Below, piece by piece: positions 6,606-21,053 of a DNA stretch of 46,672 nucleotides. This stretch comes from an uncultured Verrucomicrobia subdivision 3 bacterium (lineage in GTDB: Bacteria; Verrucomicrobiota; Verrucomicrobiia; Limisphaerales; UBA11358): NCBI GenBank assembly GCA_903858275.1, contig CAIOIC010000007.1:1-46672 (forward strand), in the 5' to 3' direction. Numbering within the stretch: position 1 is the stretch's first letter; each line of letters opens with the position of its first letter. Under the pieces are notes generated by a model. It was given only the letters and a program-made list of their open reading frames with translations. It made no database searches and was not told the DNA's origin. Position numbers and translations under genes: made by a program.

Positions 6606-7388
6606 GTGAAAATCCTCTTCATCGGCGACATCGTTGGCGAACCCGGACGCACGGCGGTGGAAACCATCCTGCCCCGCCTGCGCGACGAGCACGCGCTGGA
6701 TTTCGTTATCGCCAACGGCGAAAACTCCGCCGGCGGCAACGGCATCACGCCGCAGATTGCCGGCGAACTCTTTTCCGCCGGCGTGGACGCCATCACCAGC
6801 GGCGATCATTTGTGGGATCAGAAAACCGTGCAGGACCTGCTTTACAGCGAACCGCGATTCCTGCGTCCGCTCAATTATCCGGCCTCCGTGCCGGGGCGCG
6901 GCGCCCACGTTTTCCAGGTCCGCAATCTCCCGCCCGTCGGCGTGATGAATGTGCAAGGCCGCGTGTTCATGCAACCGATGGACAACCCGTTCACCACCGC
7001 CGAAGCCGAGGTGAATCGTCTGCGGGAACAGACCAAAATCATTTTCGTGGATTTCCACGGCGAAGCCACGTCGGAGAAGATTGCCTTCGGGCGTTTTCTG
7101 GACGGCCGCATCAGCGCGGTGGTCGGCACGCATACCCACGTGCAGACGGCGGACGAGCAGATCCTGCCCCATGGCACGGCCTATTTGAGCGATGCGGGTT
7201 TCACCGGCCCGCATGACGGCTGCCTGGGCCGCGAAATCGAGCCGGTGCTGAAGAAGTTTTTGACCGGCATGCCGCAGCGGTTTGACGTGGCTAGAAACAA
7301 CATCAAGCTGCACGGCGCTCTTATCCGCATTGACGATGCCAGCGGCAAGGCTGTCAGCATCCAGCGCGTGGCGGAAAAGCTGGACTGA
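6606..7388 (+). CDS. YmdB/TIGR00282-family metallophosphoesterase
   Basis: 260 residues, close to the usual length of this family (Bacillus YmdB, Deinococcus DR1281), whose members hydrolyse phosphodiesters, including 2',3'-cyclic nucleotides, with two metals. Expected ligands are present: Asp8 in FIGDIVGEPGR, Glu39-Asn40 in NGENSAGG, Asp67-His68 in SGDHLWD, His151 in FVDFHGEATSEK, and His176/His178 in VVGTHTHVQTADE. A GTG start is used 44 bases after the WecA-like gene. The protein has no signal peptide and should be cytoplasmic. Only one base separates its stop from the downstream transporter gene, so the two are very likely co-transcribed. Confidence 0.92.
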   Translation: MKILFIGDIVGEPGRTAVETILPRLRDEHALDFVIANGENSAGGNGITPQIAGELFSAGVDAITSGDHLWDQKTVQDLLYSEPRFLRPLNYPASVPGRGAHVFQVRNLPPVGVMNVQGRVFMQPMDNPFTTAEAEVNRLREQTKIIFVDFHGEATSEKIAFGRFLDGRISAVVGTHTHVQTADEQILPHGTAYLSDAGFTGPHDGCLGREIEPVLKKFLTGMPQRFDVARNNIKLHGALIRIDDASGKAVSIQRVAEKLD

Positions 7389-8604: not shown

Positions 8605-9593
8605 TCCGCCAGTATCTTTTCGATCAGCGCCAGTTCCTCGCGGGTGAAATTGAGGTTTTTCACCGCGCCCGCGCAATCATCCACCTGCGACACCTTGCTG
8701 GCGCCGATGAGCGCGCTTGTCACCACCGGATGCCGCAGCACCCACGCCAGCGCCATCTGCGCCAGCGTCTGATGGCGCGAGGACGCAAGCTCGTTCAGCT
8801 TTTTCGTCTTGGCGAGCACAGCGTCGGTGATGTCCGCGGGACGGAGAAACCTTTGATCATGACCCGCGCGCGAATCGGCGGGGATGCCTTTGAAATAGCG
8901 GTCGGTCAAAACTCCTTTGGCCAGCGGCGAGAACACTGTGGCGCCGATGCCTTCGGCCTCAAGCGTTGCCAGCAGCTGCGGTTCCACCCAGCGATCCAGC
9001 ATGGAATAACGCGCCTGATGAATGAGGCACGGCGTGCCCAGCTCGCGCAAGATTTTCGCCGCGCGCGCCGTCTCGGCGGCGGGATAATTGGAGATGCCCG
9101 CATACAGTGCCTTGCCGCTTTTCACCGCGTGGGCCACGGCGCCCAGGGTTTCTTCGAGCGGGGTCTCGGGGTCGAGGCGATGCGAATAAAAAATATCCAC
9201 ATACTCCAGCCCCATCCGCTTGAGCGACTGGTCGAGCGAAGCCAGAAGGTATTTGCGCGAGCCCCATTCACCGTAAGGACCCGGCCACATATAATAACCC
9301 GCCTTCGTCGTGATAATCATCTCATCGCGCCACCGCCGCAAATCGTGGCGCAAAATATTTCCAAACGTCTCCTCCGCCGCGCCATCCGGTGGCCCGTAAT
9401 TATTCGCCAGGTCAAAACAGGTGATGCCAAGGTCGAAGGCCCGCAGGGCGATGGCGCGGGCATTGTCATAGGAATCCTTCGCCCCGAAATTGTGCCACAT
9501 CCCGAGCGAGATTAGCGGCAACTTTAGCCCGGAACGACCACAGCGGCGGTAAAAGCCGGGCGCGGCATAGCGGGTGGTGGCGGGTGAATACAT
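8601..9593 (-). CDS. Aldo/keto reductase (YghZ / glyceraldehyde-3-P reductase type)
   Basis: NADPH-dependent (beta/alpha)8 barrel reductase of 330 residues. The full catalytic tetrad is visible: Asp61 and Tyr66 in FDLANNYGPPDG, Lys97 in TTKAGY and His138 in FYSHRLDPETP. The sequences NNYGPPDGAAEE and GYYMWPGPYGEWGSRKY are characteristic of the YghZ/Kv-beta subgroup, which reduces short aldehydes such as L-glyceraldehyde 3-phosphate or methylglyoxal. It starts 6 bases after the purB stop, so both are probably on one transcript. A purine-pathway role is not implied; the pairing may be accidental. Confidence 0.92.
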   Translation of the reverse strand: MYSPATTRYAAPGFYRRCGRSGLKLPLISLGMWHNFGAKDSYDNARAIALRAFDLGITCFDLANNYGPPDGAAEETFGNILRHDLRRWRDEMIITTKAGYYMWPGPYGEWGSRKYLLASLDQSLKRMGLEYVDIFYSHRLDPETPLEETLGAVAHAVKSGKALYAGISNYPAAETARAAKILRELGTPCLIHQARYSMLDRWVEPQLLATLEAEGIGATVFSPLAKGVLTDRYFKGIPADSRAGHDQRFLRPADITDAVLAKTKKLNELASSRHQTLAQMALAWVLRHPVVTSALIGASKVSQVDDCAGAVKNLNFTREELALIEKILAD

Positions 9594-9599
9594 AAAGAT

Positions 9600-10937
9600 T
9601 TAATTAAGCCCGAGCTTCTTGAACCGGTTGTTCACTTCTTTGAAGTGGAAGTCGAGCGAGCAGAGCGCTTCGAGTTCGCCTTTCTTGAACAGCTTTTGCA
9701 TTTGTGCATCCAGTTTGAGTTGCTCGACAAAGTCCGCGTCATCGCGGCCGGCGTGCTTCACTTCCCACGTCTTCATCGCGGCGTCCTGACAGATTTTGTA
9801 GGCAGCTTCGCGGGTGAGACCTTTCTTGATGAGCGCGAGGAGAATAGTCTGGCTGTTCCACATGCCGAGCGAGAGTCCGATGTTCTTCTTCATGTTCGCG
9901 GGATAGACGACGATGCCGTCCATCAGGCGCGTGAGCAAGCCGAACATGTAATCCAGCAGCGTGCAGCTATCGGGGAAGATGATCCGCTCGACGCTGCTGT
10001 GGCTGATGTCGCGCTCGTGCCAGAGGGCGACATTTTCCAGCGAGGCCATCGCGTTGCCGCGCAACACGCGTGCGAGGCCGGTGAGTCGTTCCCAGGTGAT
10101 GGGATTGCGCTTGTGCGGCATGGCACTGCTGCCTTTCTGGCCTTTCGTGAACGGCTCTTCGGCTTCGAGCACTTCGGTGCGTTGCAAATGGCGGAACTCA
10201 ACCGCCCAGCGCTCGATGCTCGCGCCGACGAGCGCCATCGCGAGTTGGAATTCGGCGTGGATGTCGCGCTGCACGACTTGCGTGGCGATGGGCGCGGGTT
10301 GAATGCCGAGCTTCTTGCAGACGTAAGCCTCGACGCGCGGCGACAGATGCGCGCTCGTACCGACGGCGCCGGAGATTTTACCAACGGCCACGACATCGCG
10401 CACGGCTTCAAGCCGACGCAGAGCGCGTTTGAATTCGTCATACATCAACGCGAGCTTGAGGCCGAAGGTCGTGGGTTCGCCGTGGATGCCGTGACTGCGA
10501 CCCATGCAAGGCGTGAACTTGTGTTCCCTCGCGCGCCGGGCAATGACGGGCAGCACCGCTTTCACGTCGGCGATGAGAATGTCCGCGCTCTGCATCATCT
10601 GTACAGCGTAGCAGGTGTCACCCACGTCGCTGCTGGTGAGGCCGAAGTGAAACCAGCGGCTCGCGTTGTCGTTGATGGCTTCCGCCACGGCCGTGGTGAA
10701 GCCAATGACATCGTGGTTCAAGACCTTTTCCAGTTCGCGCTGGCGGGCGACGAGACCGGGGAGGTCGGCAAACCATTTATCGCAGCCGGCTTTGATCTTC
10801 TTGAAATCCTTGGCGGGGACGACGCCTTCCTTCACCAGCGCTTCGCTGGCGAGGAGTTCGATCTGGAGCCAGATCTTGAGTTTGTTTTCGTCGGTCCAGA
10901 TAGCCCGCATCTCGGGGCGGGAATAGCGAGTAATCAT
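9600..10937 (-). CDS. purB: Adenylosuccinate lyase
   Basis: Splits adenylosuccinate to AMP and SAICAR to AICAR, each with release of fumarate, in purine synthesis. 445 residues of the fumarase/aspartase superfamily. Seen: TSSDVGDT (101-108), GRSHGIHGEPTTFG with catalytic-region His149 (146-159) and the signature GSSAMPHKRNPI (269-280). The N-terminus MITRYSRPEM is the canonical start of bacterial PurB. The frame stays open to 11096, but the extra 53 residues look non-coding. An extended -10 element lies about 100 bases upstream at 11041-11049. The downstream neighbour on the same strand is an aldo/keto reductase. Confidence 0.96.
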   Translation of the reverse strand: MITRYSRPEMRAIWTDENKLKIWLQIELLASEALVKEGVVPAKDFKKIKAGCDKWFADLPGLVARQRELEKVLNHDVIGFTTAVAEAINDNASRWFHFGLTSSDVGDTCYAVQMMQSADILIADVKAVLPVIARRAREHKFTPCMGRSHGIHGEPTTFGLKLALMYDEFKRALRRLEAVRDVVAVGKISGAVGTSAHLSPRVEAYVCKKLGIQPAPIATQVVQRDIHAEFQLAMALVGASIERWAVEFRHLQRTEVLEAEEPFTKGQKGSSAMPHKRNPITWERLTGLARVLRGNAMASLENVALWHERDISHSSVERIIFPDSCTLLDYMFGLLTRLMDGIVVYPANMKKNIGLSLGMWNSQTILLALIKKGLTREAAYKICQDAAMKTWEVKHAGRDDADFVEQLKLDAQMQKLFKKGELEALCSLDFHFKEVNNRFKKLGLN

Positions 10938-11040
10938 GCGTTCAAGATACTGGAATCGCAGAATCCATGAAATAATAAATAAATCGTGGTGGCGAAGCCG
11001 TGCGGCATCAGCAACCGGACGTTGCGCGAGTTTGAAAATG

Positions 11041-11049
11041 ATTATAGCA
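11041..11049 (-). promoter_or_regulatory. Extended -10 promoter element for purB
   Basis: Read on the minus strand the sequence is TGCTATAAT, a perfect TATAAT with the TGn extension. No convincing -35 hexamer lies 16-18 bases upstream, as is common for extended -10 promoters. It would give a leader of about 95 bases before the purB start at 10937. This is motif evidence only. Confidence 0.45.
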
Positions 11050-11105
11050 TCAAGCAAACAACCAAAAGTTTTCAGAGGCCTAAATAAACTTATCAAAATC
11101 CATAC

Positions 11106-13493
11106 ATGAACAGAATCTGGCGAACCATCATTTCACTAGCCGTGGTTTTCGGTTTTGGCGTCACCTGTTTCGGCGGCTGGCAGGAAGGCGTCGGGCGGCA
11201 AACCATTTCATTGGATGGAAGCTGGCGATTGAGCTACGGGCCGCAACGGTCTGATGGACCGCGCTCGCCGGGAGAGTTAGCCCTGGCTGGCTGGCCAGCC
11301 ATTGCGGCGACAGTGCCGGGAAATGTCGAATTAGACCTGATGAAGGCCGGGCTGTTGCCGGAGTTGTCGGTAGGAACTAACATCTATCGGCTGCGTGAGT
11401 TGGAAGGCAACCAGTGGTGGTATCAGCGGAAATTTTCAACGCCCAAACGGACGGGTAACACGCGTATCGAACTGGTTTTTGAGGGAATTGACTGTTTGGG
11501 CACGATCTTCCTTAACGGGCGAGAGGTAGGCCAGACCCGTAATATGTTCATCGCCCACCGTATTGATGTAACCGACCAGTTGCGCGAAGCTGGCGGGGAG
11601 AACGAATTGACTGTCCGGCTCGATTCCGCCGTGCTTGCGGGACGCCAGCACGAGCCATCAGCACTGGAAGGCGCCTTCGCTGCAAATTGGGAATCACTTT
11701 CTATTCGCAAGGCCCCGCATATGTATGGATGGGATATATCACCGCGAATCGTGTCGGCTGGCCTGTGGCGGAGCGTGCGTTTGGAATCGATGCCTTCCAC
11801 CCGGCTGACCGATGTTTATTTCACAACTCTGCGCTTGGATTCCAACCGCCAAAAAGCGCAAGTCCTGGTGGATTGGAATTTTGCGACGGACGGTTTCACG
11901 ATAGACCGGTGGAAGATTCGCCTATCCTTTGAACGCGACGGCAAACAAATCCTACAAAAGATATTCCCGGTGTTCGGTTCCCATGATCGCCATAAATTGG
12001 ATGTGACACGGCCTGATTTATGGTGGCCACGGGGTTATGGCACACAACCGCTTTACGAACTGACTCTCGAACTTTTGAACGGAGATGGCAAGGTTCTGGA
12101 TACCTGGCATCAACGGGTCGGCATCCGCACCATCAAGCTGGTGCGCTCGGATATCACCACCCCGGAAAAGTCCGGCGAATTTGTTTTTGTGGTCAATGGT
12201 GAAAAGATTTTTGTGAAAGGGAGCAACTGGGTGCCGCTCGACAGTCTCCATAGCCGGGACAAGCAGCACCTGTCATCTGCTTTTGACATGCTTGCGGATT
12301 TGAATTGCAACATGCTCCGCTGCTGGGGCGGAAACGTCTATGAAGATCACGACTTCTTCGAATTATGCGATCAACACGGCTTGATGGTCTGGCAGGATTT
12401 TGCGCTGGCCTGCGCCATCTATCCGCAGACCGAGGCTTTTGCCGCCGAGATGCGGGATGAAGCCACGGCGGTGGTGCGGAAATTACGCAATCATCCCAGT
12501 CTCGCCCTGTGGGCCGGCAATAACGAGATTGATCAGGCTTATACCGGCTGGTTTGGCTACCCGCTCGATCCCAACACTGACCGGTTAAGCCGTCAGGTCT
12601 TGCCCGAAGTAGTCCGCCAGTGTGATCCCATTCGTGATTATCTACCCAGTTCGCCTTATTACAGCCCGGAATTAATCAAGGCGGGCAACCGAAGTGAGAA
12701 CAGACCGGAAGATCATTTGTGGGGTCCTCGGGATGACTTCAAAGGTAAATTTTATACTTCCTCACCCGCACATTTCGTCAGCGAAACAGGTTATCATGGC
12801 TGCCCCGACCGACGCAGTTTGGAACAGATGATGGAACCGGGCTTTGTGTGGCCCTGGCAGAACAACGAGCAATGGCTCACCCATGCCGTTCGGCCGCTGC
12901 CGGGCGAAACCGGATATAATTACCGGATTCCGCTCATGGCCAATCAGACCGCGGTCTTGTTTGGTGCGGTGCCGGATAATCTCGATGATTTCATCCTCGC
13001 TTCGCAAATCAGTCAGGCCGAAGCGGACAAGTTTTTTATCGAATTGTCCCGGATGCGCAAATGGCAGCGCACCGGCATTCTGTGGTGGAATTTGCGCGAT
13101 GGCTGGCCGATTATTTCCGACGCGATTGTGGATTACTACAACCGCAAGAAACTGGCCTATCAATACATCAAACGGGTGCAAACTGATGTTTGTGCGATGT
13201 GCGGTGAACCGGAAGACGGTCGTCAGCCATTGGTGATCGTGAATGACACCCTGACCGAAGCGAGCGGCCATGTTGTCATCCGGGATGCGGACAGTCGCCT
13301 AACCATTTTTGAATCAAATTATCATGTCGACCGCAATGGTCGTGCGGAGGTCGGTTTTATTCCTCAAGCCAGCAAACCGGCGATGTGGCTGATTGAATGG
13401 ACGTTTGGAAAACAGAAGTTTTACAATCATTATCTAGCCGGTCCCCGTCCTTTCAAACTGTTTGATTACAAACGCTGGTTAAAATCCTTGTGA
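11106..13493 (+). CDS. Secreted GH2 beta-mannosidase-like glycoside hydrolase
   Basis: 795 residues. An N-terminal signal peptide (about 1-23, hydrophobic core ISLAVVFGFGV) targets it to the periplasm or outside. A jelly-roll sugar-binding domain (about 35-225) and an immunoglobulin-like domain (about 230-345) precede the (beta/alpha)8 catalytic domain (about 355-690). The GH2 acid/base is Glu474 in LWAGNNEIDQAY and the nucleophile is Glu560 in HFVSETGYHG. The sequence NMLRCWGGNVYEDHDFFELCD (402-422, paraphrased by key residues RCWGG and EDHDFF) is typical of beta-mannosidases rather than beta-galactosidases. It would cleave terminal beta-mannose. It stands alone, divergent from purB, without a transporter or SusCD-like partner. 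Confidence 0.88.
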   Translation: MNRIWRTIISLAVVFGFGVTCFGGWQEGVGRQTISLDGSWRLSYGPQRSDGPRSPGELALAGWPAIAATVPGNVELDLMKAGLLPELSVGTNIYRLRELEGNQWWYQRKFSTPKRTGNTRIELVFEGIDCLGTIFLNGREVGQTRNMFIAHRIDVTDQLREAGGENELTVRLDSAVLAGRQHEPSALEGAFAANWESLSIRKAPHMYGWDISPRIVSAGLWRSVRLESMPSTRLTDVYFTTLRLDSNRQKAQVLVDWNFATDGFTIDRWKIRLSFERDGKQILQKIFPVFGSHDRHKLDVTRPDLWWPRGYGTQPLYELTLELLNGDGKVLDTWHQRVGIRTIKLVRSDITTPEKSGEFVFVVNGEKIFVKGSNWVPLDSLHSRDKQHLSSAFDMLADLNCNMLRCWGGNVYEDHDFFELCDQHGLMVWQDFALACAIYPQTEAFAAEMRDEATAVVRKLRNHPSLALWAGNNEIDQAYTGWFGYPLDPNTDRLSRQVLPEVVRQCDPIRDYLPSSPYYSPELIKAGNRSENRPEDHLWGPRDDFKGKFYTSSPAHFVSETGYHGCPDRRSLEQMMEPGFVWPWQNNEQWLTHAVRPLPGETGYNYRIPLMANQTAVLFGAVPDNLDDFILASQISQAEADKFFIELSRMRKWQRTGILWWNLRDGWPIISDAIVDYYNRKKLAYQYIKRVQTDVCAMCGEPEDGRQPLVIVNDTLTEASGHVVIRDADSRLTIFESNYHVDRNGRAEVGFIPQASKPAMWLIEWTFGKQKFYNHYLAGPRPFKLFDYKRWLKSL

Positions 13494-13518
13494 AATAAAG
13501 CCAGCTTCCACTGACCAT

Positions 13519-14397
13519 TCACCGCCCGGCCATTTTGCGCCGCGCCGACTCGAGGACTTCCCGCTCGCGCGCCGTCAGGCTTTGGATGCCGTGCGCGGAA
13601 ATCTTGTCGAGAATGGGGTCCACCTCTTCCACCACGATTTCTGCCGGGGATTTTTCAATCCGCTTTTGCACCGGGGGTTCCGGCTGCTCGCGGTATGGAA
13701 ATAGCTGAAAGGTTCCTTCCAGTCGCGCGCCCCTGCCCCGCATGATTCTTCGCACAAAAAACCAGCCCATCGCCATGCCGCCGAGATGCGCGGCGTTCGC
13801 GACGTTGTCCCAGGGAAAAATAACTCCCGTCACCGCCAGCACCGCCGAGATGAGAAACAGGGTTTTGGCCGGCAGATGCACGGGGATAACGAAGAAAACC
13901 AGCATCGTCAGCTCGCGCTCGGGAAAAATCAGCGCAAACGCCGCGACCAACCCGAACGCGCAAGCCGAAGCGCCGACCACCGCGCCGCCGAAAAGTTGCG
14001 GCCACAGCAGCGAGACCAGCACTTGAAAAACGCCACCCACGATGCCGCTGGAACATATCAGCGCGAGGAATTTTTTTTTGCCCAGCAAGGTTTCAAGTTC
14101 CCGCCCAAAAGTAAAAATCGCCCAGCAGTTCAGCAGCAGGTGCAGCCAGCCGGCGTGCATGAATTGATAGGTCACCAGTTGCCAGACATAACCCCGCTCC
14201 AAGCCTTCCTTGCTCAAGGCCAGATAGGAGAAAAAATGGCTTTGCGGGGCAAATTTGACGGCGGCGATTTCCGCGACAAACACAACCACATACACCGCCA
14301 GCAGCAGCACGGTCCACGACCAGCGCAACTGAAAGCGTGGCGTCCAGCGCGAACCGCCATACTCCGGCGCTCTCATGTAGTCGCGATCTTCAAGCAT
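13519..14397 (-). CDS. Rhomboid-family intramembrane serine protease with C-terminal DUF6576-like tail
   Basis: 292 residues, about six membrane segments. Rhomboid active-site features are present: HAGWLHLLLN with His81, His86 and Asn90; the nucleophile Ser144 in VVGASACAFG; and His204 in NAAHLGGMAMGW, forming the Ser-His dyad. The enzyme cleaves membrane proteins within or near their transmembrane helix. A soluble tail (about 222-292) ends in DPILDKISAHGIQSLT and AREREVLESARRKM, a small C-terminal module I associate with DUF6576 in Bacteroidota and Verrucomicrobiota rhomboids. It is convergent with the beta-mannosidase gene (25-base gap). Confidence 0.9.
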   Translation of the reverse strand: MLEDRDYMRAPEYGGSRWTPRFQLRWSWTVLLLAVYVVVFVAEIAAVKFAPQSHFFSYLALSKEGLERGYVWQLVTYQFMHAGWLHLLLNCWAIFTFGRELETLLGKKKFLALICSSGIVGGVFQVLVSLLWPQLFGGAVVGASACAFGLVAAFALIFPERELTMLVFFVIPVHLPAKTLFLISAVLAVTGVIFPWDNVANAAHLGGMAMGWFFVRRIMRGRGARLEGTFQLFPYREQPEPPVQKRIEKSPAEIVVEEVDPILDKISAHGIQSLTAREREVLESARRKMAGR

Positions 14398-14427
14398 GGC
14401 AAGATACTACGCGGTAAACCGGCAATT

Positions 14428-15012
14428 TCAAACGGCTTTGCGCCGCCACCAGAACATCCACTCTTTTCCCTCGCGGTTGGGATATGAACGCGGCACCCAG
14501 TCTGACACCAAGTCAAAGTGCGGCGAGAAGCGTTCCAATAATTCCTGATGCGTCGTCGGCCACGGTGGACCGTCCGGCTCGCACAGGAAATAATTCACTG
14601 CCAGATAATTTCCACCCGGCTTAAGCCAGCGCAACACGGCGCGGACATAAGCATCGCGCTCTTCGGGTTGGATGGCGCAGAACAAGGTGTGTTCAAACAG
14701 CCAGTCAAATGGCTGTGGTGGCTCGTCATGCAAAAAATCGGCCAGTTGAAATTTCGCCACGAGGCCGGCATTCTTGGTCTTTTCTTCGCACAATCGAATC
14801 GCACTCGGCGCGAGGTCAAAACCAAAGGACTCGATGCCAGCGGCGGCAAAGGCGCGAACATCGTGGCCGGTGCCGCAACCGGGAACGCCGATGGTCCCCT
14901 TTATTAATTCAGGATGAGCCGCCAGAAAATCCACGAGGCCGGGCGACGGCGCGCCTTTTTCCCATTGCATGTCACCGGTCTGATAACGATTTTCCCAATA
15001 GTCACGGTTCAC
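14428..15012 (-). CDS. SAM-dependent methyltransferase, thiopurine S-methyltransferase family
   Basis: 194 residues. The TPMT-family layout is clear: an N-terminal DYWENRYQTGDMQWEKGAPS, SAM motif I GVPGCGTGHDVRAFA (42-56), FGFDLAPSAIRLCEE (63-77), FDWLFEHTLFCAI, and a C-terminal NREGKEWMFWWRRK. The family methylates sulfur, selenium or halide acceptors; the natural bacterial substrate is unknown here. The GTG start overlaps the lolD stop as GTGA, so the two are translationally coupled. No functional link to lipoprotein sorting is known. Confidence 0.85.
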   Translation of the reverse strand: MNRDYWENRYQTGDMQWEKGAPSPGLVDFLAAHPELIKGTIGVPGCGTGHDVRAFAAAGIESFGFDLAPSAIRLCEEKTKNAGLVAKFQLADFLHDEPPQPFDWLFEHTLFCAIQPEERDAYVRAVLRWLKPGGNYLAVNYFLCEPDGPPWPTTHQELLERFSPHFDLVSDWVPRSYPNREGKEWMFWWRRKAV

Positions 15013-15686
15013 GGCTGAATAGTTCCGTCCACCAATTGAATCACGCGCGGCGCGGCGGCGGCAACTTTCGCGTCGTGGGTGGCAATGACCAGCGTCATCT
15101 GCTTTTCCGTGCGAAGTGATTGGAGCAATTCCATGATTTCGCCGCCGGTGTGGGAGTCCAGGTTGCCGGTCGGCTCGTCGGCCAGAAGCAATTCCGGTTC
15201 GTTGATAAGGGCGCGGGCGATGGCGACACGCTGCTGTTCGCCGCCGGAAAGCTCGGATGGCTTGTGGTCCAGCCGGTCGCGCAAGCCGACGCGGGCGAGC
15301 AGTTCCCCTGCCCGCTGCGCGGCGTTGCCGGTGGAAATCCGGGCGATGCGGGCGGGTAGACAGACATTTTCCAGCGCCGTCAGTTCGGGCAACAGATGAT
15401 ATGCCTGAAACACAAAGCCGACGCGCCGGTTGCGAAAGCGCGTCAATTCGCCTTCTGAAAACCGCGAGATGTTTTGTCCGGCAAAAATGATTTCTCCCGC
15501 ATTCGGAGTATCAAGTCCGCCGATGAGATGCAGCAAAGTGCTTTTGCCGGTGCCGGAAGCGCCGCGCAAGGCCACGAAATCACCGCGCGCAATCTCCACA
15601 TCCACACCGCGCAACACTTCCAGCGAGCGCTTGCCCATGACGTAAGTTTTTTTGAGTCCGCGCGCGGACATCAGCGATTCATTCAT
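15009..15686 (-). CDS. lolD: Lipoprotein-releasing ABC transporter ATPase LolD
   Basis: ATPase subunit (225 residues) of the MacB/LolD class, working with the adjacent inner-membrane permease to release outer-membrane lipoproteins. Walker [10 protein letters not shown] is at 42-50, the Q-loop is in [18 protein letters not shown] (91-108), the signature LSGGEQQR at 146-153 and Walker [13 protein letters not shown] at 166-177. The gene overlaps the upstream permease by 8 bases and the downstream methyltransferase by 4. Closely related MacB-type exporters share these motifs, so the assignment leans on the neighbouring LolC/E-type permease. Confidence 0.88.
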
Positions 15687-16953
15687 AACGCAGCGCCTCC
15701 ACGGGTTTCAGTCCGCCGGCCCGAATGGCGGGCAGCAGTCCGCCCAGAATGCAGATAATAAAAGATCCCACGCAAATCACCACGACGTCGCTTGGCGTAA
15801 TGAGCGCGGGCAGTTCGCCGAAGCCATAGACGGAGGCGGGAAACAATTCCCAGCCGGTCACGGCGCGCATGAAGTGAAGAAATTCATTCCGGTAAGTGAC
15901 CGCGAGCATTCCCAATCCGTAACCTGACGCCACGCCGATGACGCCGATGATGGCGCTCTGGCTGAGAAAGATGCCGGAGATTTGGAGTTTCGACGCGCCG
16001 AGCGCCTTGAGCATGCCAATTTCGCGCGTCTTCTGGATGACAAAGGTGATCTGCGCGCTCAAGATGCAGAGCGCCGCGACGAGCACGATGAAAAAGAGGA
16101 GGTAGAACATGACGTTTTTCTCGACTATCAAAGCATTGAGTATTCCTGAGCTTTGCTCCATCCACGTCGTCACGAAATAACTGTCGCCGAGTTTGGCTGC
16201 CAACTCCCTTTTCGCCACCCCGGCTTGATACGGATCTTTTAACACCACGAACAAGCCATGCACTGCATCGTTCAGGTCATATAAATCTTGCGCGTTGTCG
16301 AGCGAGGTGACGACGACGCGGGCGTTGTATTCGTAATAGCCGGCGTCAAAAATGCCGCGAACTTCGTATTCGTCTGGCAGAATGGCCTCATCCTGCTTTT
16401 TGTCGTGCGCGACCTTCATCTTTTTGATCTGGCGCGCGGAATAAATAGAAAGACGATCACCGACCTGCATCCGTAGATTATTCGCGAAGTCCACGCCGAC
16501 GATCAGCCCGCGCCCGCTCAAGTCAAATTTTCCCGCGATAATCTCCTTCGGCAAATTGCTGACCCTGCCTTCCGTGGCCGGGTCAATGCCGCGCAACATT
16601 GGCGCGTCTTGCAACGCCGGCCGGTTCGTGTCGCCCGCAGTCTCAATGAGCACCGGGCCGAAGACAAAAGGCGACACGCCTTTCACTTTCGCGTTTTTAG
16701 CAACAACGCCAGCCACGGCGGAATAATTTTTCATCGTGCTGCCCGCTTGCGAAACCGTGAGGTGCGCGTTGAAGCCCAGAATCTTTTCCCGCAAATCATG
16801 GTCAAAACCGCTCATCACGCTGATGACAATGATGAGCACCGCCACGCCCAGCGCGACGCCGAGGATGGAAATCAACGTGATGATGGAAACAAATGTCCGT
16901 TTGGGCCGCAGATAACGCAGCGCCAGGAAAAGTTCAAACGGCAGTCGTGACAT
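15679..16953 (-). CDS. LolC/LolE family lipoprotein-releasing permease
   Basis: 424 residues with the FtsX/MacB topology: one N-terminal membrane segment (about 20-48), a large periplasmic domain (about 50-270) and three C-terminal segments (about 278-300, 320-350, 390-412). LolC/E hallmarks are the start FELFLALRYLRPKRTFVSII and the cytoplasmic loop KTREIGMLKALGAS. Only one permease gene is present, unlike the LolCDE trio of Enterobacteria, so the complex is probably a homodimer (the LolF-like arrangement). It is first in a group with lolD and a methyltransferase, and divergent from sppA across 115 bases. Confidence 0.88.
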   Translation of the reverse strand: MSRLPFELFLALRYLRPKRTFVSIITLISILGVALGVAVLIIVISVMSGFDHDLREKILGFNAHLTVSQAGSTMKNYSAVAGVVAKNAKVKGVSPFVFGPVLIETAGDTNRPALQDAPMLRGIDPATEGRVSNLPKEIIAGKFDLSGRGLIVGVDFANNLRMQVGDRLSIYSARQIKKMKVAHDKKQDEAILPDEYEVRGIFDAGYYEYNARVVVTSLDNAQDLYDLNDAVHGLFVVLKDPYQAGVAKRELAAKLGDSYFVTTWMEQSSGILNALIVEKNVMFYLLFFIVLVAALCILSAQITFVIQKTREIGMLKALGASKLQISGIFLSQSAIIGVIGVASGYGLGMLAVTYRNEFLHFMRAVTGWELFPASVYGFGELPALITPSDVVVICVGSFIICILGGLLPAIRAGGLKPVEALRYE

Positions 16954-17068: not shown

Positions 17069-18220
17069 ATGGATATACCGCCCATCTCCCCGTCCTTCAT
17101 GCCGCCGCCGGTCATCACCCCGCCCACGCCGCCCCGCAAAAGCCGCGGCTGGATGATTGCCTCGATTATTTTGCTGGTGGTGCTGGCGTTCAGCTTGTTT
17201 GGCAACCTCGCGCAATTCATCGGCAGCGCGTTGTCGTTCCGCAACGGCTTGCACAGCGAGTCGTTTGGTTCCGCGCGTGATGCCGGGCCGAAGCTGGAGG
17301 AATTCGTCCTGGAGAACAACAAATCGCCAAACAAAATCGCCGTCATCTCCGTGGATGGCATCATCAGCAGCCACGAGTTCAACGGCAGCGGCAACAACCT
17401 AGTAGAACTGATCAAGGCTCAGCTCGACCGCGCCGAGAGCGACAAGCGCGTGAAAGCCGTCGTTTTGAAAGTGGATTCCCCCGGCGGCGAAGTGCTGGCG
17501 TCCGATGAAATCTACAACGCCATCCGCGCGTTTGAGACCGACGACCAGGACGAACACGGCAAGCCGGCCACCAAAGGGAAACCGGTGATCTGCTCCATGG
17601 GCAGCCTCGCGGCGTCCGGCGGTTATTATATTTCCTCCGGCTGCCGCTGGATTGTGGCCAACGAACTGACCATCACCGGCAGCATCGGCGTCATCATGCA
17701 CGGCTACAATTATCGCGGACTCATGGACAAGGTCGGCGTCGCGCCGATGACCTACAAGAGCGGAAAGTTCAAAGACATGTTGAGCGGTGACCGTGCGCCC
17801 GGCGACATTCCCGCCGAGGAACGGGCGATGGTGCAGGGCTTGATTGATGAAACTTATGGCAAATTCAAAGAGGTCGTCGCCGATGGCCGCAGCGCCGCGC
17901 ATGAAGCCAACAAAAAATCCGGCAAGGCGCTGGCCGACAAGTGGGAAGATTTTGCCGATGGCCGCGTGCTCTCCGGCAAACAGGCGCTCGAACTCGGCCT
18001 GGTGGACGAACTTGGCAATTTCGACGACGCGGTGGATCGCGCGATGAAGATTGCCAAGATTGATTCCGCCAACCTCGTGGAGTATCGGGAGCGCTATGAT
18101 CTTGCGAATTTCCTTTCCCTGTTCGGCCAAAGCGGCCAGGCGCATGACATCAAGCTCAACCTCGGCGTCGAGGTGCCCAAGCTCCGCGCCGGCCTGATGT
18201 ATTTCCTCTACCAGCCTTGA
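17069..18220 (+). CDS. sppA: Signal peptide peptidase SppA (short, single-domain type)
   Basis: 383-residue membrane-anchored serine protease that clears cleaved signal peptides. A proline-rich cytoplasmic N-terminus (1-26) precedes one membrane segment (about 28-53). The peptidase S49 domain follows, with VVLKVDSPGGEVLASDEIY (131-149), the nucleophile Ser183 in MGSLAASGGYYIS and the general-base lysine region YKSGKFKD (229-236). It is a single-domain protein like Bacillus SppA, not the duplicated E. coli form. No Shine-Dalgarno sequence is visible just before the ATG. The run of repeats that starts about 110 bases downstream separates it from the accessory region. Confidence 0.93.
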   Translation: MDIPPISPSFMPPPVITPPTPPRKSRGWMIASIILLVVLAFSLFGNLAQFIGSALSFRNGLHSESFGSARDAGPKLEEFVLENNKSPNKIAVISVDGIISSHEFNGSGNNLVELIKAQLDRAESDKRVKAVVLKVDSPGGEVLASDEIYNAIRAFETDDQDEHGKPATKGKPVICSMGSLAASGGYYISSGCRWIVANELTITGSIGVIMHGYNYRGLMDKVGVAPMTYKSGKFKDMLSGDRAPGDIPAEERAMVQGLIDETYGKFKEVVADGRSAAHEANKKSGKALADKWEDFADGRVLSGKQALELGLVDELGNFDDAVDRAMKIAKIDSANLVEYRERYDLANFLSLFGQSGQAHDIKLNLGVEVPKLRAGLMYFLYQP

Positions 18221-18333
18221 AAAACGTTACGGTTGAAGCGCGACAAAGCCACCTTGGCGGCGCTAAAGTCGGCTACATTCTGCCCGGCCTCGGCGACGCG
18301 GGCGACCGGTCGCTTGAGACTTAATATTTTTTC

Positions 18334-18373
18334 TTTCGCAGCGCGCGGTGCAGGTTGCCGAATTGAAATTCCA
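18334..18373. repeat. Direct repeat copy A (40 bp, detached copy of the PAP2 gene 3' end)
   Basis: Forty bases identical to 20395-20434. On the minus strand this copy still encodes EFQFGNLHRALRKK, the C-terminus of the PAP2 phosphatase, then KY and a stop, but no gene leads into it. With copy B it encloses the two secreted-protein genes. A perfect 40-base match 2,061 bases apart cannot be chance. Confidence 0.92.
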
Positions 18374-18413
18374 GCGCTGGCAGAATGGACGCTAATCGGA
18401 TATACAGAATGCC

Positions 18414-18851
18414 TTATTGTTCGACGAGCCGATAAAACCGTTGCATCACACTGGGGGCAGAATTGGTCACAATCTTCACCGTGCCGTCGCCGGAAATGAC
18501 TGGAAGGCTTTGCCAATTCAAGGCTGAAATGGAATCCACATATTGCACCAAGTAGGTCTTGCCCGGTTCGGTTTGAATCGAAAGCATGAAGTTATTTCCA
18601 ACCTTCTTTGGTGCAAACATAACAGGTGAAGGCCAAATCCAAAAGCCGCCTTGGATGGAAAATCGGGCACTGCTCGGCACAGCGGCAAGCGGCTGGGCGA
18701 TAGTGCTGCCCAATTGAAATCGGGCGCTGGTGCTGAGAGTTGTGCCGCCGCCAGCAATCACGCTGCGCGTGATCACAAACCGGCTGCTGCTTTGGGCAAA
18801 AGCCGCCACTGATAGGACAGTGAGCAAGCCAAATAGAATTATTTTTTTCAT
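18414..18851 (-). CDS. Small secreted protein, function unknown
   Basis: 145 residues with a clear signal peptide (MKKIILFGLLTVLSVAAFAQ). Start taken at the ATG encoding MKKII, since the nine residues before it do not continue a signal sequence. The mature part has two short matching stretches (TSARFQLGSTIAQPL and SSARFSIQGGFW) and a C-terminal module running from KTYLVQYVDS to QRFYRLVEQ. Similar modules close many secreted proteins of Verrucomicrobiota and Planctomycetota and may serve as a beta-sandwich or surface-sorting tail. It follows the glycine-rich protein gene by 17 bases on the same strand and is probably co-expressed. I cannot assign a function. Confidence 0.75.
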   Translation of the reverse strand: MKKIILFGLLTVLSVAAFAQSSSRFVITRSVIAGGGTTLSTSARFQLGSTIAQPLAAVPSSARFSIQGGFWIWPSPVMFAPKKVGNNFMLSIQTEPGKTYLVQYVDSISALNWQSLPVISGDGTVKIVTNSAPSVMQRFYRLVEQ

Positions 18852-18868
18852 GGCGTTACGCCTTGTAA

Positions 18869-20206
18869 TTACCACCAAATGATAACCCGACCAGAAGCGC
18901 CAGGTTGCCCCACAGTGGCACTAAACGAACTTATTCCTCCTCCACCTCCGGTGCCTCCTCCACCTGGACTTTGCCCCGAAGCATACGAGCCTGCATTCGG
19001 ACCGGCAGCACCTCCCGCCCCGCCATTGGCACCCGCCCCGCCGGGACCATAACCAGCTATTGCTGGCCAGCCGTGGAAACCACTGATTGCAATGTCGGCT
19101 GTGCTGGTTCCCGGATTTCCCCCATCACCATAGCTGGGAGTGCCGCCGGCACCACCACCGCCGCCCGTGCCGCCTGCTCCTCCGGTGGCGGTAATAGTTC
19201 CGGCGCTACAAACAACACTGCTGGTTCCTCCAGTTCCGCCGGTAGCTCCGGTGGCACCATTTGTGCCGCTACCGTAACTGTAACCACCACTCCCACCAGC
19301 TCCACCGGTTCCCACAGTGACAGTAATGGAATCGCCGGGATTGAGAGTTAGGATCTGTTTTCCATAGGCACCACCTCCACCACCGCCGCCCGATCCACCA
19401 TACCAAGCTCCATAATTACCAGACCCACCGCCACCGCCGCCGCCACCACCAGCACCCCACACTTCAAACATAAATCGCCAACCACCGGCTGGAAGATTGG
19501 TCGGAACGATAATCGTGGTGCTGTAATCGATGACACCGTAAGAAGGCTGCATTGCACCGACAATCAGGGAATTTCCGTTGGTAATAATCACCACATTTGT
19601 TCCAGCTAACAGCAAGGCAAAATCCCTCAGGCCGTTGAGCGATTTGACGACTTGACCTGCGGCGATGTTGGTGGCGTTCACGGCGTTCGCCGACAGGTTA
19701 CGGTTGGTGATGGCATTGTTGGAAATCAGCGTCGTGGTAATGGCGTTGATTTGTATGTTGGTCGTTGCCACTGCGCTGGCGGCCAGTTGTTGATTCATAA
19801 TCGCACCATTCGTCACGGTCGCTGCCACCGCCGCAAACTGGGCATACGGAGTTGGCAGAACTTGCACTCGCGGGGCAAGGGTTTCCGCAGAACTGGATCC
19901 GCTTTGCACGGTGATGTCCAGCCAACGGGCAGTGCCGTTGAACGCGCCCGCGCCAAAATCCAGATTCACGGTAAAAAGTCCGTTGACCAGCGTGGGGTTG
20001 GCATTAATCGTGTCGCCAATCTGGCTGCCGCCGCTGGCGGAGTCGTAGAGCTTGAACGCCATGGAGTAGGCTCCGTTGGCATTGGTGCCGCCGTCACGGA
20101 GCTGGCCTTGATAGGTAAAGGCTGTGGATTGTTGTGCAAACACCGGGCAAGAAGTCAACCAGACACAGACGGCGAATAACGAGTGTAATGAGATTTGATT
20201 TTTCAT
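18869..20206 (-). CDS. Secreted glycine-rich protein with phage tail-fibre-like C-terminal domain
   Basis: 445 residues. A signal peptide (1-25, ending PVFAQ) is followed by a beta-rich domain (about 28-130) beginning FTYQGQLRDGGTNANGAYS, a type common in secreted proteins of Verrucomicrobiota and Planctomycetota. Residues about 132-190 repeat short Asn/Ala/Ile-rich units (NAITTT, NNAITNRN, NAVNATN), which suggests a trimeric stalk. Residues about 250-445 are a glycine-rich domain of the kind found at phage tail-fibre tips, entered through FEVWGAGGGGG and closed by GRVIIWW. A surface fibre or adhesin is the best guess. The start at 20206 (ATG) fits the signal peptide; a good promoter lies just upstream. 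Confidence 0.8.
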   Translation of the reverse strand: MKNQISLHSLFAVCVWLTSCPVFAQQSTAFTYQGQLRDGGTNANGAYSMAFKLYDSASGGSQIGDTINANPTLVNGLFTVNLDFGAGAFNGTARWLDITVQSGSSSAETLAPRVQVLPTPYAQFAAVAATVTNGAIMNQQLAASAVATTNIQINAITTTLISNNAITNRNLSANAVNATNIAAGQVVKSLNGLRDFALLLAGTNVVIITNGNSLIVGAMQPSYGVIDYSTTIIVPTNLPAGGWRFMFEVWGAGGGGGGGGGSGNYGAWYGGSGGGGGGGAYGKQILTLNPGDSITVTVGTGGAGGSGGYSYGSGTNGATGATGGTGGTSSVVCSAGTITATGGAGGTGGGGGAGGTPSYGDGGNPGTSTADIAISGFHGWPAIAGYGPGGAGANGGAGGAAGPNAGSYASGQSPGGGGTGGGGGISSFSATVGQPGASGRVIIWW

Positions 20207-20254
20207 AGTTTTGCCTTGGAATTTAGATTTAATAAGCTTTGCTGTGTTAAAGCG

Positions 20255-20284
20255 ATTAGAATTCAAACAAAGCTGATTTGTCAA
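20255..20284 (-). promoter_or_regulatory. Sigma70-like promoter of the secreted glycine-rich gene pair
   Basis: On the minus strand a perfect TTGACA (20279-20284) and TCTAAT (20255-20260, five of six consensus bases) are separated by 18 bases. Transcription would begin near 20248, giving a leader of about 40 bases before the ATG at 20206. The promoter lies inside the segment bounded by the 40-bp direct repeats, so the gene pair carries its own expression signal. Confidence 0.55.
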
Positions 20285-20387
20285 TCGCAAAAAGTGAAAT
20301 ATCAAACCTGTGATTTTCGCTCCAGAAGTTCGAGTGGAATTGGTCCGAGCGTGTATCTGCAGCCCAAGGTTACCAGACGGAATTCGT

Positions 20388-21053
20388 TTATTTTTTTCGC
20401 AGCGCGCGGTGCAGGTTGCCGAATTGAAATTCCACCGACGTCAACAGCAGCCGTTTAAGCAAGATGGCCAGCGGGATGGAAAGCAGCGTGGACGCCACCA
20501 CATCGGAAAGATGATGGCATTGCAGGGCGATGCGCGACCACATCACGGCCACCGCATAGAGCATCGCCACCAAACCCCAGCCGCGATGCACCAGCCACAC
20601 CGCCGCCGCCAGACCCGCCGCCGTGGCCGCGTGGCCGGAGGGAAACGAGCTGAACGCAAACTTGCCGATGATCCAGTGGCCATCGTGCCAGACGCCGTAA
20701 AACCCCGGCGGCACGTCGTGGTTCAGCGGGCGGGCGCGACCGAACAACACGCGCAGAATAGTTGCGGCCAAGCCGGTGAGCTCGCAGGTCAGCATCACAA
20801 AAAAGATTTTGGCCGCGACAACCGGCCGTTTGGCGACGAGAAAAACGGCCGCAAAGAAAAATCCCGCCGCCGCCGGCACCCAGCCATCGCCGATTTTGGA
20901 ACACCACCATGCGAAGTTTTTCAGGGCCGGATCGCGCGTAGCATCAAGCGCGGCACCCACGCGGTTGTCCAGCAACCACGACAGACCCAGAACCGCGCCT
21001 GCGGCCAGCAGCCAGAGCCAGCGGCGGCGCTGGGAGGTGGATGAAGTTTTCAC
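20388..21053 (-). CDS. PAP2-family membrane phosphatase
   Basis: 221 residues, about five or six membrane segments. The PAP2 (type 2 phosphatidic acid phosphatase) motifs are complete: RVLFGRARP (101-109), FPSGHAATA (137-145) with catalytic His141, and SRIALQCHHLSD (173-184) with His180. Such enzymes remove phosphate from lipid phosphates, for example undecaprenyl pyrophosphate or phosphatidic acid; lpxE/bacA-like roles are possible. The GTG start at 21053 is the only good one. Its last 13 codons form repeat copy B. The stop is directly followed, in the direction of transcription, by the promoter region of the glycine-rich gene. Confidence 0.9.
   Translation of the reverse strand: MKTSSTSQRRRWLWLLAAGAVLGLSWLLDNRVGAALDATRDPALKNFAWWCSKIGDGWVPAAAGFFFAAVFLVAKRPVVAAKIFFVMLTCELTGLAATILRVLFGRARPLNHDVPPGFYGVWHDGHWIIGKFAFSSFPSGHAATAAGLAAAVWLVHRGWGLVAMLYAVAVMWSRIALQCHHLSDVVASTLLSIPLAILLKRLLLTSVEFQFGNLHRALRKK
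20395..20434. repeat. Direct repeat copy B (40 bp, within the 3' end of the PAP2 gene)
   Basis: Identical to 18334-18373. It encodes the last residues of the PAP2 phosphatase (EFQFGNLHRALRKK). Just beyond each copy is a T-rich run with small length differences (copy B ends the protein RKK-stop, copy A RKKKY-stop), so homology may extend about ten bases more with gaps. This copy is taken as the original because it belongs to an intact gene. Confidence 0.92.

Follow-up and report, generated by a model that had tools for sequence, protein, structure and literature searches.

How did two genes for secreted-type proteins come to stand between two identical copies of the end of a phosphatase gene? 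This question is raised by a locus in an uncultured Verrucomicrobia subdivision 3 bacterium, within contig C7 (46,672 bp, referred to here as the window) of a draft genome, G000, of 3.66 Mb in 136 contigs that is 94% complete. The phosphatase gene, PAP2, contains a 40-nt sequence at 20395 (copy B) that recurs exactly at 18334 (copy A), and the 2,021-bp insert between the copies, which with them is termed here the PAP2 islet, carries one gene for a fibre-like protein and one for a small partner, neither of which is a recombinase according to Pfam and NCBIfam. This much of an earlier, sequence-only reading of the window was confirmed. That reading also saw the geometry of an insertion into a gene end, with the target rebuilt and attachment-site-like (att-like) repeats left behind, and here it is supported by the comparison with the closest relative, G016, and with 17 syntenic relatives in all. 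The best single reading, to which we give a probability of about one half, is that the islet resembles a cis-mobilizable element (CIME) and was placed by site-specific recombination, with an integrase that acted in trans or has since been lost.

The native end of PAP2 and the empty site

The relatives come from a search for PAP2 in a first set of 59 genomes, 30 of which have a match (G000 included), and in a second set of 24, of which 7 have a match and 11 had already been without one in the first set. A long-range reading was made of 27 of them, namely the best 20 of the 29 from the first set and all 7 from the second. Of these 27, 17 have sppA downstream of PAP2 and convergent with it, as in the window; the counts for the gap between the two genes rest on these 17, the remaining 10 having no sppA within the stretch read. 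The gap holds a full-length or near-full-length upp gene, on the sppA strand, in 13 of the 17 and the gene pair of the insert in none. In G016, the stop codons of upp and PAP2 overlap, the repeat is present in one copy, and the insert is absent, so that the empty site with a single 40-mer, which the sequence-only reading had proposed to look for, is found at a native upp/PAP2 junction. By this comparison, the ancestral order was sppA-upp-PAP2, with the last two stop codons overlapping.

An important question is which of the two copies is native. Copy B had been taken for the 3′ end of the intact PAP2 gene, and copy A for a detached duplicate of that end, coding for a terminal RKK. Copy B does lie within the gene, but the repeat stops 7 nt short of the end of the open reading frame (ORF), stop codon included, and copy A leads instead to RALRKKKY-stop, which is the ending of PAP2 in G016. 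The whole right flank of copy A is as in G016 (RALRKKKY-stop, then upp with its stop and final 57 bp), while copy B keeps the PAP2 body (TSVEFQF, again as in G016) and ends in RKK-stop, followed by sequence not found in G016. Because of these flanks, the comparison shows that copy A is the native PAP2 3′ end, displaced and still beside the upp tail, that the present tail of the intact PAP2 is insert-borne, and that an insertion into the PAP2 end displaced the native one. Between the PAP2 bodies of G000 and G016, 53 of the 156 codons for the same residue differ, while copies A and B show no difference in their 40 bp; the insertion is therefore probably younger than the split between these two genomes. 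It was found in no other genome read.

In the course of events proposed here, a 2.0-kb segment with the fibre-like and small partner genes would have entered the tail-to-tail upp/PAP2 junction when the native PAP2 3′ end recombined with a sequence resembling a PAP2 tail that the incoming DNA carried. The native end was thereby pushed 2 kb off and survives as copy A beside the upp tail, and PAP2 stays whole because an insert-borne tail (copy B plus RKK-stop) completes its body. Were the crossover site-specific, through a tyrosine integrase in trans or since lost, copies A and B would be attR-like and attL-like, respectively, and the islet CIME-like.

The other side of the junction holds a remnant of upp, overlooked in the sequence-only reading, which extends over 18217-18324 as one open frame of about 35 codons (18 bp, a 33-nt scar, and 57 bp). 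Elsewhere in the genome, no upp match scores above the family cut-off, the one sub-threshold match being at 23.6 bits. The gene is also lost in 4 of the 17 syntenic relatives: G014 keeps about 17 final codons, and G018, G004, and G059 are without an upp match. We infer that upp was lost by a separate deletion, as in these four.

The repeat pair itself can be aligned more loosely over 50 nt at 94% identity (18327-18376 and 20388-20437, 2,061 from start to start). A 35-nt pattern of its core, with up to 3 mismatches, occurs at exactly two places in the 3.66-Mb assembly, A and B, which answers the proposed check for other genomic copies of the 40-mer. As a control, 716,290 bases of the genome (19.6%) were read for exact direct repeats of at least 24 nt at spacings of 300-20,000 bp. 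These were met on six contigs: C7; C84, at a tRNA-Gly gene; C65, in fibre and partner genes that are paralogous; and C100, C33, and C80, which have a dispersed leader repeat. On our reading of this sample, a segment is bounded by copies of a gene 3′ end only in the case of the C7 pair and of the tRNA-Gly set. In 418,302 bases of the relatives, four repeats were met: a single G012 gene of the junction has two, locus L121 contains another, and the fourth, of 25 nt, is in locus L055. A chance repeat is ruled out by the two-copy count together with the rarity of comparable repeats in the own-genome control, a dispersed repeat by the count for the whole genome, and an ancient shared duplication by the 17 syntenic relatives, none of which has the duplicated repeat. 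Draft assemblies, here in 136 contigs, could contain an artefact or chimera joined via a 40-bp repeat; this is very improbable for the window, since two independent wrong joins would be needed, the gene pair, the upp tail, and the PAP2 body are in their proper frames, and on either side the flank agrees with that of G016.

Table 1. The PAP2 islet and its flanks, in positions of the window.
Feature	Position	Strand	Basis or remark
sppA (signal peptide peptidase, S49 family), left syntenic anchor	17069..18220	+	Pfam PF01343, E 1.9e-43; with PAP2 in 17/27 relatives
upp start, 18 bp, TTG overlapping sppA stop	18217..18234	+	matches the start of full-length G016 upp
33-nt scar in place of most of upp, frame open	18235..18267	+	comparison with G016
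upp final 57 bp, abutting the native PAP2 3′ end	18268..18324	+	91% to G034 over 56 bp; 14/14 aligned residues as in G016
Native PAP2 end past copy A: last codons and stop, overlapping upp stop	18321..18333	-	RKKKY-stop as in G016
Repeat copy A (40 bp), the native PAP2 3′ end in displaced position, putatively attR-like	18334..18373	-
Insert, 2,021 bp	18374..20394	-	gene pair absent from the gap in 17/17 syntenic relatives
Small secreted-type protein, 145 aa, signal peptide judged by eye	18414..18851	-	partner of the fibre-like protein
Fibre-like secreted-type protein, 445 aa	18869..20206	-	conserved N-terminal head, glycine-rich distal part; Pfam Gly_rich_2, E 9.4e-8
Leader of the gene pair, 188 bp, including the insert-borne PAP2 end (stop 20388-20390)	20207..20394	-
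PAP2 phosphatase gene, 221 aa, target, ORF intact	20388..21053	-	Pfam PF01569, E 1.2e-15; 87% identical to G016
Copy B of the 40-bp repeat, inside intact PAP2, putatively attL-like	20395..20434	-

The G+C content is 54.1% in the insert, 62.6% in PAP2, and 58.9% in the sppA segment. The promoter of their own with which the sequence-only reading had credited the insert genes was not recovered: a scan of 18180-20460, by a method that covers sigma-70-type promoters only, gave 0 sites against 0.9 expected in shuffles. Rfam gave zero matches within the window.

The edges of the insert and its route of entry

Insertion at the upp/PAP2 junction is common, since 6 of the 17 syntenic relatives (G012, G006, G013, G009, G014, and G066) hold other DNA there; no gene-end repeats were accepted at these six occupied junctions, and the repeat is therefore what distinguishes the window. 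With functions judged by eye, the G012 junction encodes, among other things, a secreted-type protein of 905 aa on the opposite strand; that of G006 encodes 217 aa, that of G013 consists of repeats, and that of G009 has a peptidase-like ORF of 377 aa. Those of G014 and G066 encode secreted-type proteins of 689 and 701 aa, respectively.

The edges of the insert bear on the manner of its arrival. On the copy B side, the 7 insert-borne nucleotides past the repeat give K-K-stop, and with it the RALRKK-stop ending of relatives; K-[KRNQ]-stop was met at 740 of 201,346 positions of the own genome (0.37%), and a stop at either of the next two full codons at 5.2%. On the copy A side, the insert reads ILPAL before EFQF, like the LLPSL or LLPTL of other species and unlike the LLTSV of G000 itself, and a match this good was met at 0.11% of own-genome positions over 12 nt and 0.33% over 15 nt. 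These tail comparisons used 21 genomes for the nucleotide match and 19 for the residue profile, all with an EFQ or EFH tail. The likenesses, which are post hoc, are suggestive of an insert that would have brought its own PAP2-tail sequence. The idea that the PAP2 tail is constrained at the DNA level throughout the genus, as a conserved attB would be, is not supported: its same-codon rate of 0.567 is close to the mean of 0.546 and ranks 100th among 209 windows. G026 and G062, which have an in-frame stop near the PAP2 end that their listed tails overrun, were both excluded from the codon comparison.

Repair-mediated capture would require no PAP2 tail on the incoming DNA: a staggered or processed break at the PAP2 end would be filled around an unrelated fragment, with 40 bp duplicated, and selection would have kept the overlapping upp and PAP2 ends intact. 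The single native 40-mer could be the source of both copies, the insert is without terminal inverted repeats, and the six relatives whose junctions are occupied without gene-end repeats indicate that other routes of insertion work there. However, this explanation predicts arbitrary edges, and both edges look PAP2-tail-like (0.37% and 0.33%, post hoc and weaker at other lengths); moreover, we know of no bacterial transposon that makes a 40-bp duplication. Capture by repair is unlikely.

Several results weigh against site-specific placement. The PAP2-tail likeness at the copy A edge was sought after the fact and depends on the length compared (2.0% of positions over 9 nt, 2.4% over 18 nt, 1.0% over 21 nt, and 4.6% over 30 nt), and the residue profile there gives 1.0% for 5 residues and 9.9% for 10. 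A second PAP2 tail was accepted in none of the 27 relatives. Contig C7 has none of the genome's 7 tyrosine-recombinase matches, of which 6 exceed the cut-off; the longer recombinases are on contigs C84, C80 (two), C18, and, below the cut-off, C55. No attP-like copy was found, since, besides A and B, the repeat core is present in 49 genomes of the genus only at two PAP2 ends, those of G016 (0 mismatches) and G059 (2), and a 26-nt form of it is absent from viral contigs; nor was evidence for excision of the islet found. Finally, flanking repeats are present at 0 of 3 comparable sites of orthologous gene pairs (in G012, G011, and G018), a fourth, in G023, being broken by a contig end. The gene pair as a repeat-bounded mobile unit is accordingly not supported at these three sites, and the pair itself is not a defined mobile unit; the geometry of the islet envisaged in the sequence-only reading stands, but its gene pair, with orthologues at four other places, is not supported as the unit that moves.

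PAP2-tail-like matches in three relatives were set aside, those in G014 (33 columns at 82%, E 0.005, within an ORF) and G002 (55 columns at 67%, E 0.009) as chance and those in G013 as its own minisatellite.

One alternative that does without a dedicated integrase is a single-crossover (Campbell-type) integration, by RecA or short homology, of a circularised fragment with the PAP2 tail of a related species, the repeat being the shared homology. It would yield the same geometry, including the mosaic flanks of A and B, and it agrees with an insert that is without integrase, with the want of an attP-like copy in the 49 genomes and the viral contigs, and with the upp deletion within 70 bp of copy A. 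On the other hand, 40 bp is very short for a RecA-mediated crossover, the crossover sits at a gene end and leaves PAP2 whole, as gene-end integrases do, and att-bounded elements exist at a tRNA-Gly gene of the same genome. We regard this route as possible, though rather improbable. Single-crossover duplication, as well as insertions coupled with deletions, is described in PMC3240628.

The tRNA-Gly elements and the closest known systems

Site-specific placement by an integrase in trans would have a parallel on contig C84 (locus L171, G000:C84:1001-21000), where a tRNA-Gly gene (7005-7078) is followed by elements that extend through 12869. The last 30 bp of this gene stand at 7049, 11092, and 12840, the first two copies agreeing over 49 bp. 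The first segment (4,043 bp) encodes a tyrosine integrase together with SRAP and an ankyrin protein; the one in tandem with it (1,748 bp) contains AbiEi-like and AbiEii-like genes and no integrase. G000 thus has an integrase-less two-gene islet with gene-end repeats next to a presumed helper. On the element sides of the first two copies, a common stretch is followed by tandem GTGCAGTAAA / GTGCAAGTAAA motifs, and a like motif is found near the integrase; these motifs look like putative arm-type sites. No 8-mer is repeated within 20201-20394 of the PAP2 islet, and thus no arm-type-like motif was seen there. Among the 5 of 7 recombinase loci that were read for att repeats (10-20 kb each), a spanning repeat of at least 16 nt was found only at the tRNA-Gly gene and as one 18-nt pair on contig C55.

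The AbiE-like islet (L171, 11092-12840) resembles the PAP2 islet in having two genes in about 2 kb, no integrase, and gene-end repeats, of 30 bp; it differs in its defence-type cargo and in its tandem position beside an element that has an integrase and the same repeat. It is doubtful that resident tyrosine integrases move tiny two-gene integrase-less islets in trans between gene ends in these Verrucomicrobia, and that such traffic (the fibre pair at PAP2, the AbiE pair at tRNA-Gly) swaps surface-fibre and defence genes as satellite cargo.

As to known classes, the integrase inside and beside an att site that marks a tyrosine-integrase genomic island is missing from the PAP2 islet, and so are the terminal inverted repeats and transposase that mark a transposon or insertion sequence: no transposase family was found in the two genes, and the insert ends have a single shared 7-mer. 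Transfer genes are likewise absent from the two genes. An integron cassette would have attC sites and an integron integrase in cis, and contig C7 gave no tyrosine recombinase. Genomic islands at the ends of protein genes, such as SGI1, have their own integrase and are much larger than the PAP2 islet. SGI1 integrates at trmE and so, like the PAP2 islet, at a protein-gene 3′ end (PMC8409611). Streptococcal tyrosine-integrase elements, which are also found at protein-gene 3′ ends, have repeats of 12-54 bp, a range that includes the 40 bp of the PAP2 repeat (PMC4701971).

The CIME, as defined in PMC5704250, is without integration and transfer genes and has attL/attR-like direct repeats, one of them in the end of the target gene, and in these respects the PAP2 islet is like it. 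The differences are that the PAP2 islet is just 2 kb long, with two secreted-type genes, that no relic of an integrative and conjugative element (ICE) or integrative and mobilizable element (IME) was found in the 2-kb insert, that no integrase element lies at the site, and that the att roles are putative. It is plausible that the PAP2 islet works like a CIME. Another comparison is offered by the ssrA islands of Dehalococcoides, 15 of which are without an integration module and were called possibly cis-mobilizable by their authors (PMC3146451). They too are bounded by copies of a gene 3′ end, but their target is the tmRNA gene, their repeat is 20 bp long, and they have sister islands with a putative serine integrase, whereas the PAP2 islet is in a protein gene and no sister element was found.

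The fibre-like protein, its partner, and what the islet means

The small protein has no Pfam family and one NCBIfam match that, at 21 bits, is far below the cut-off of 240. Genes of both families are common in the genus, with small-protein-like genes in at least 48 of 49 genomes and fibre-like genes in 46 of 49. The five strongest places matched by the small protein and a few weak ones were followed up, and, among the matches listed, its orthologues in G012, G011, G023, and G018 are 54-67% identical. In all four, the gene adjoins a fibre-like gene in the same order as in the window (the G023 pair is split across two contig ends and was taken as belonging together), and the four pairs are at four different places, none of which is the PAP2 site. 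The G012 pair lies between the methyltransferase and rhomboid genes of the same neighbourhood (L117, G012:C21, 9005-10899). The junction of these two genes is itself variable: it measures 30 bp in the window (14397-14428), and G016 has other DNA of about 1.3 kb there (L036, 2394-3702).

The head of the fibre-like protein is 58-62% identical in three orthologues. Its distal part is glycine-rich in G000 and G018, while in G012 and G023, and in G011 by likeness of the end sequence, its end is formed by a Peptidase_S74 chaperone domain. The pattern is that of an apparently modular protein with a conserved head and an exchangeable tip, and the cargo may serve surface attachment, the distal part varying like a fibre tip. 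The predicted structures have a predicted local distance difference test (pLDDT) score of 55 for the small protein and 68 for the fibre head, and neither has a PDB match at E ≤0.001; because the models are weak, the folds say nothing firm. No relatives of the small protein were found in viral contigs, and the fibre protein has one weak match in a plasmid collection.

Further fibre-like and partner-like genes stand in tandem on contig C65 (L123, G000:C65:57001-76000, at 9170-16421), where two partner-like genes share an exact 86-bp stretch, 3,865 bp apart. The dispersed leader repeat of the control ends in a common gene start (ATGAAAAnnAA) and has 6 copies in the 19.6% sample, at about 16,600 and 19,240 on C80, 56,830 and 60,180 on C100, and 39,320 and 41,890 on C33; one of the C80 copies stands upstream of an 823-aa ORF. 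It is perhaps a copied promoter, leader, and signal-peptide start.

A literature search, which covered titles and abstract openings with most subscription literature outside its scope, gave no such description for this group. The PAP2 islet is a clear case, of a known kind. It provides a polarised example, with the native end, the empty site, and the insert each identified, of an islet of two surface-protein genes that entered the end of a protein gene and has no integrase of its own. If the in-trans reading is wrong, the lesson would be that repeats of a gene end are by themselves no proof of site-specific integration. If it is true, 2-kb integrase-less islets would be a route for the spread of fibre and defence genes that island finders keyed to integrases overlook.

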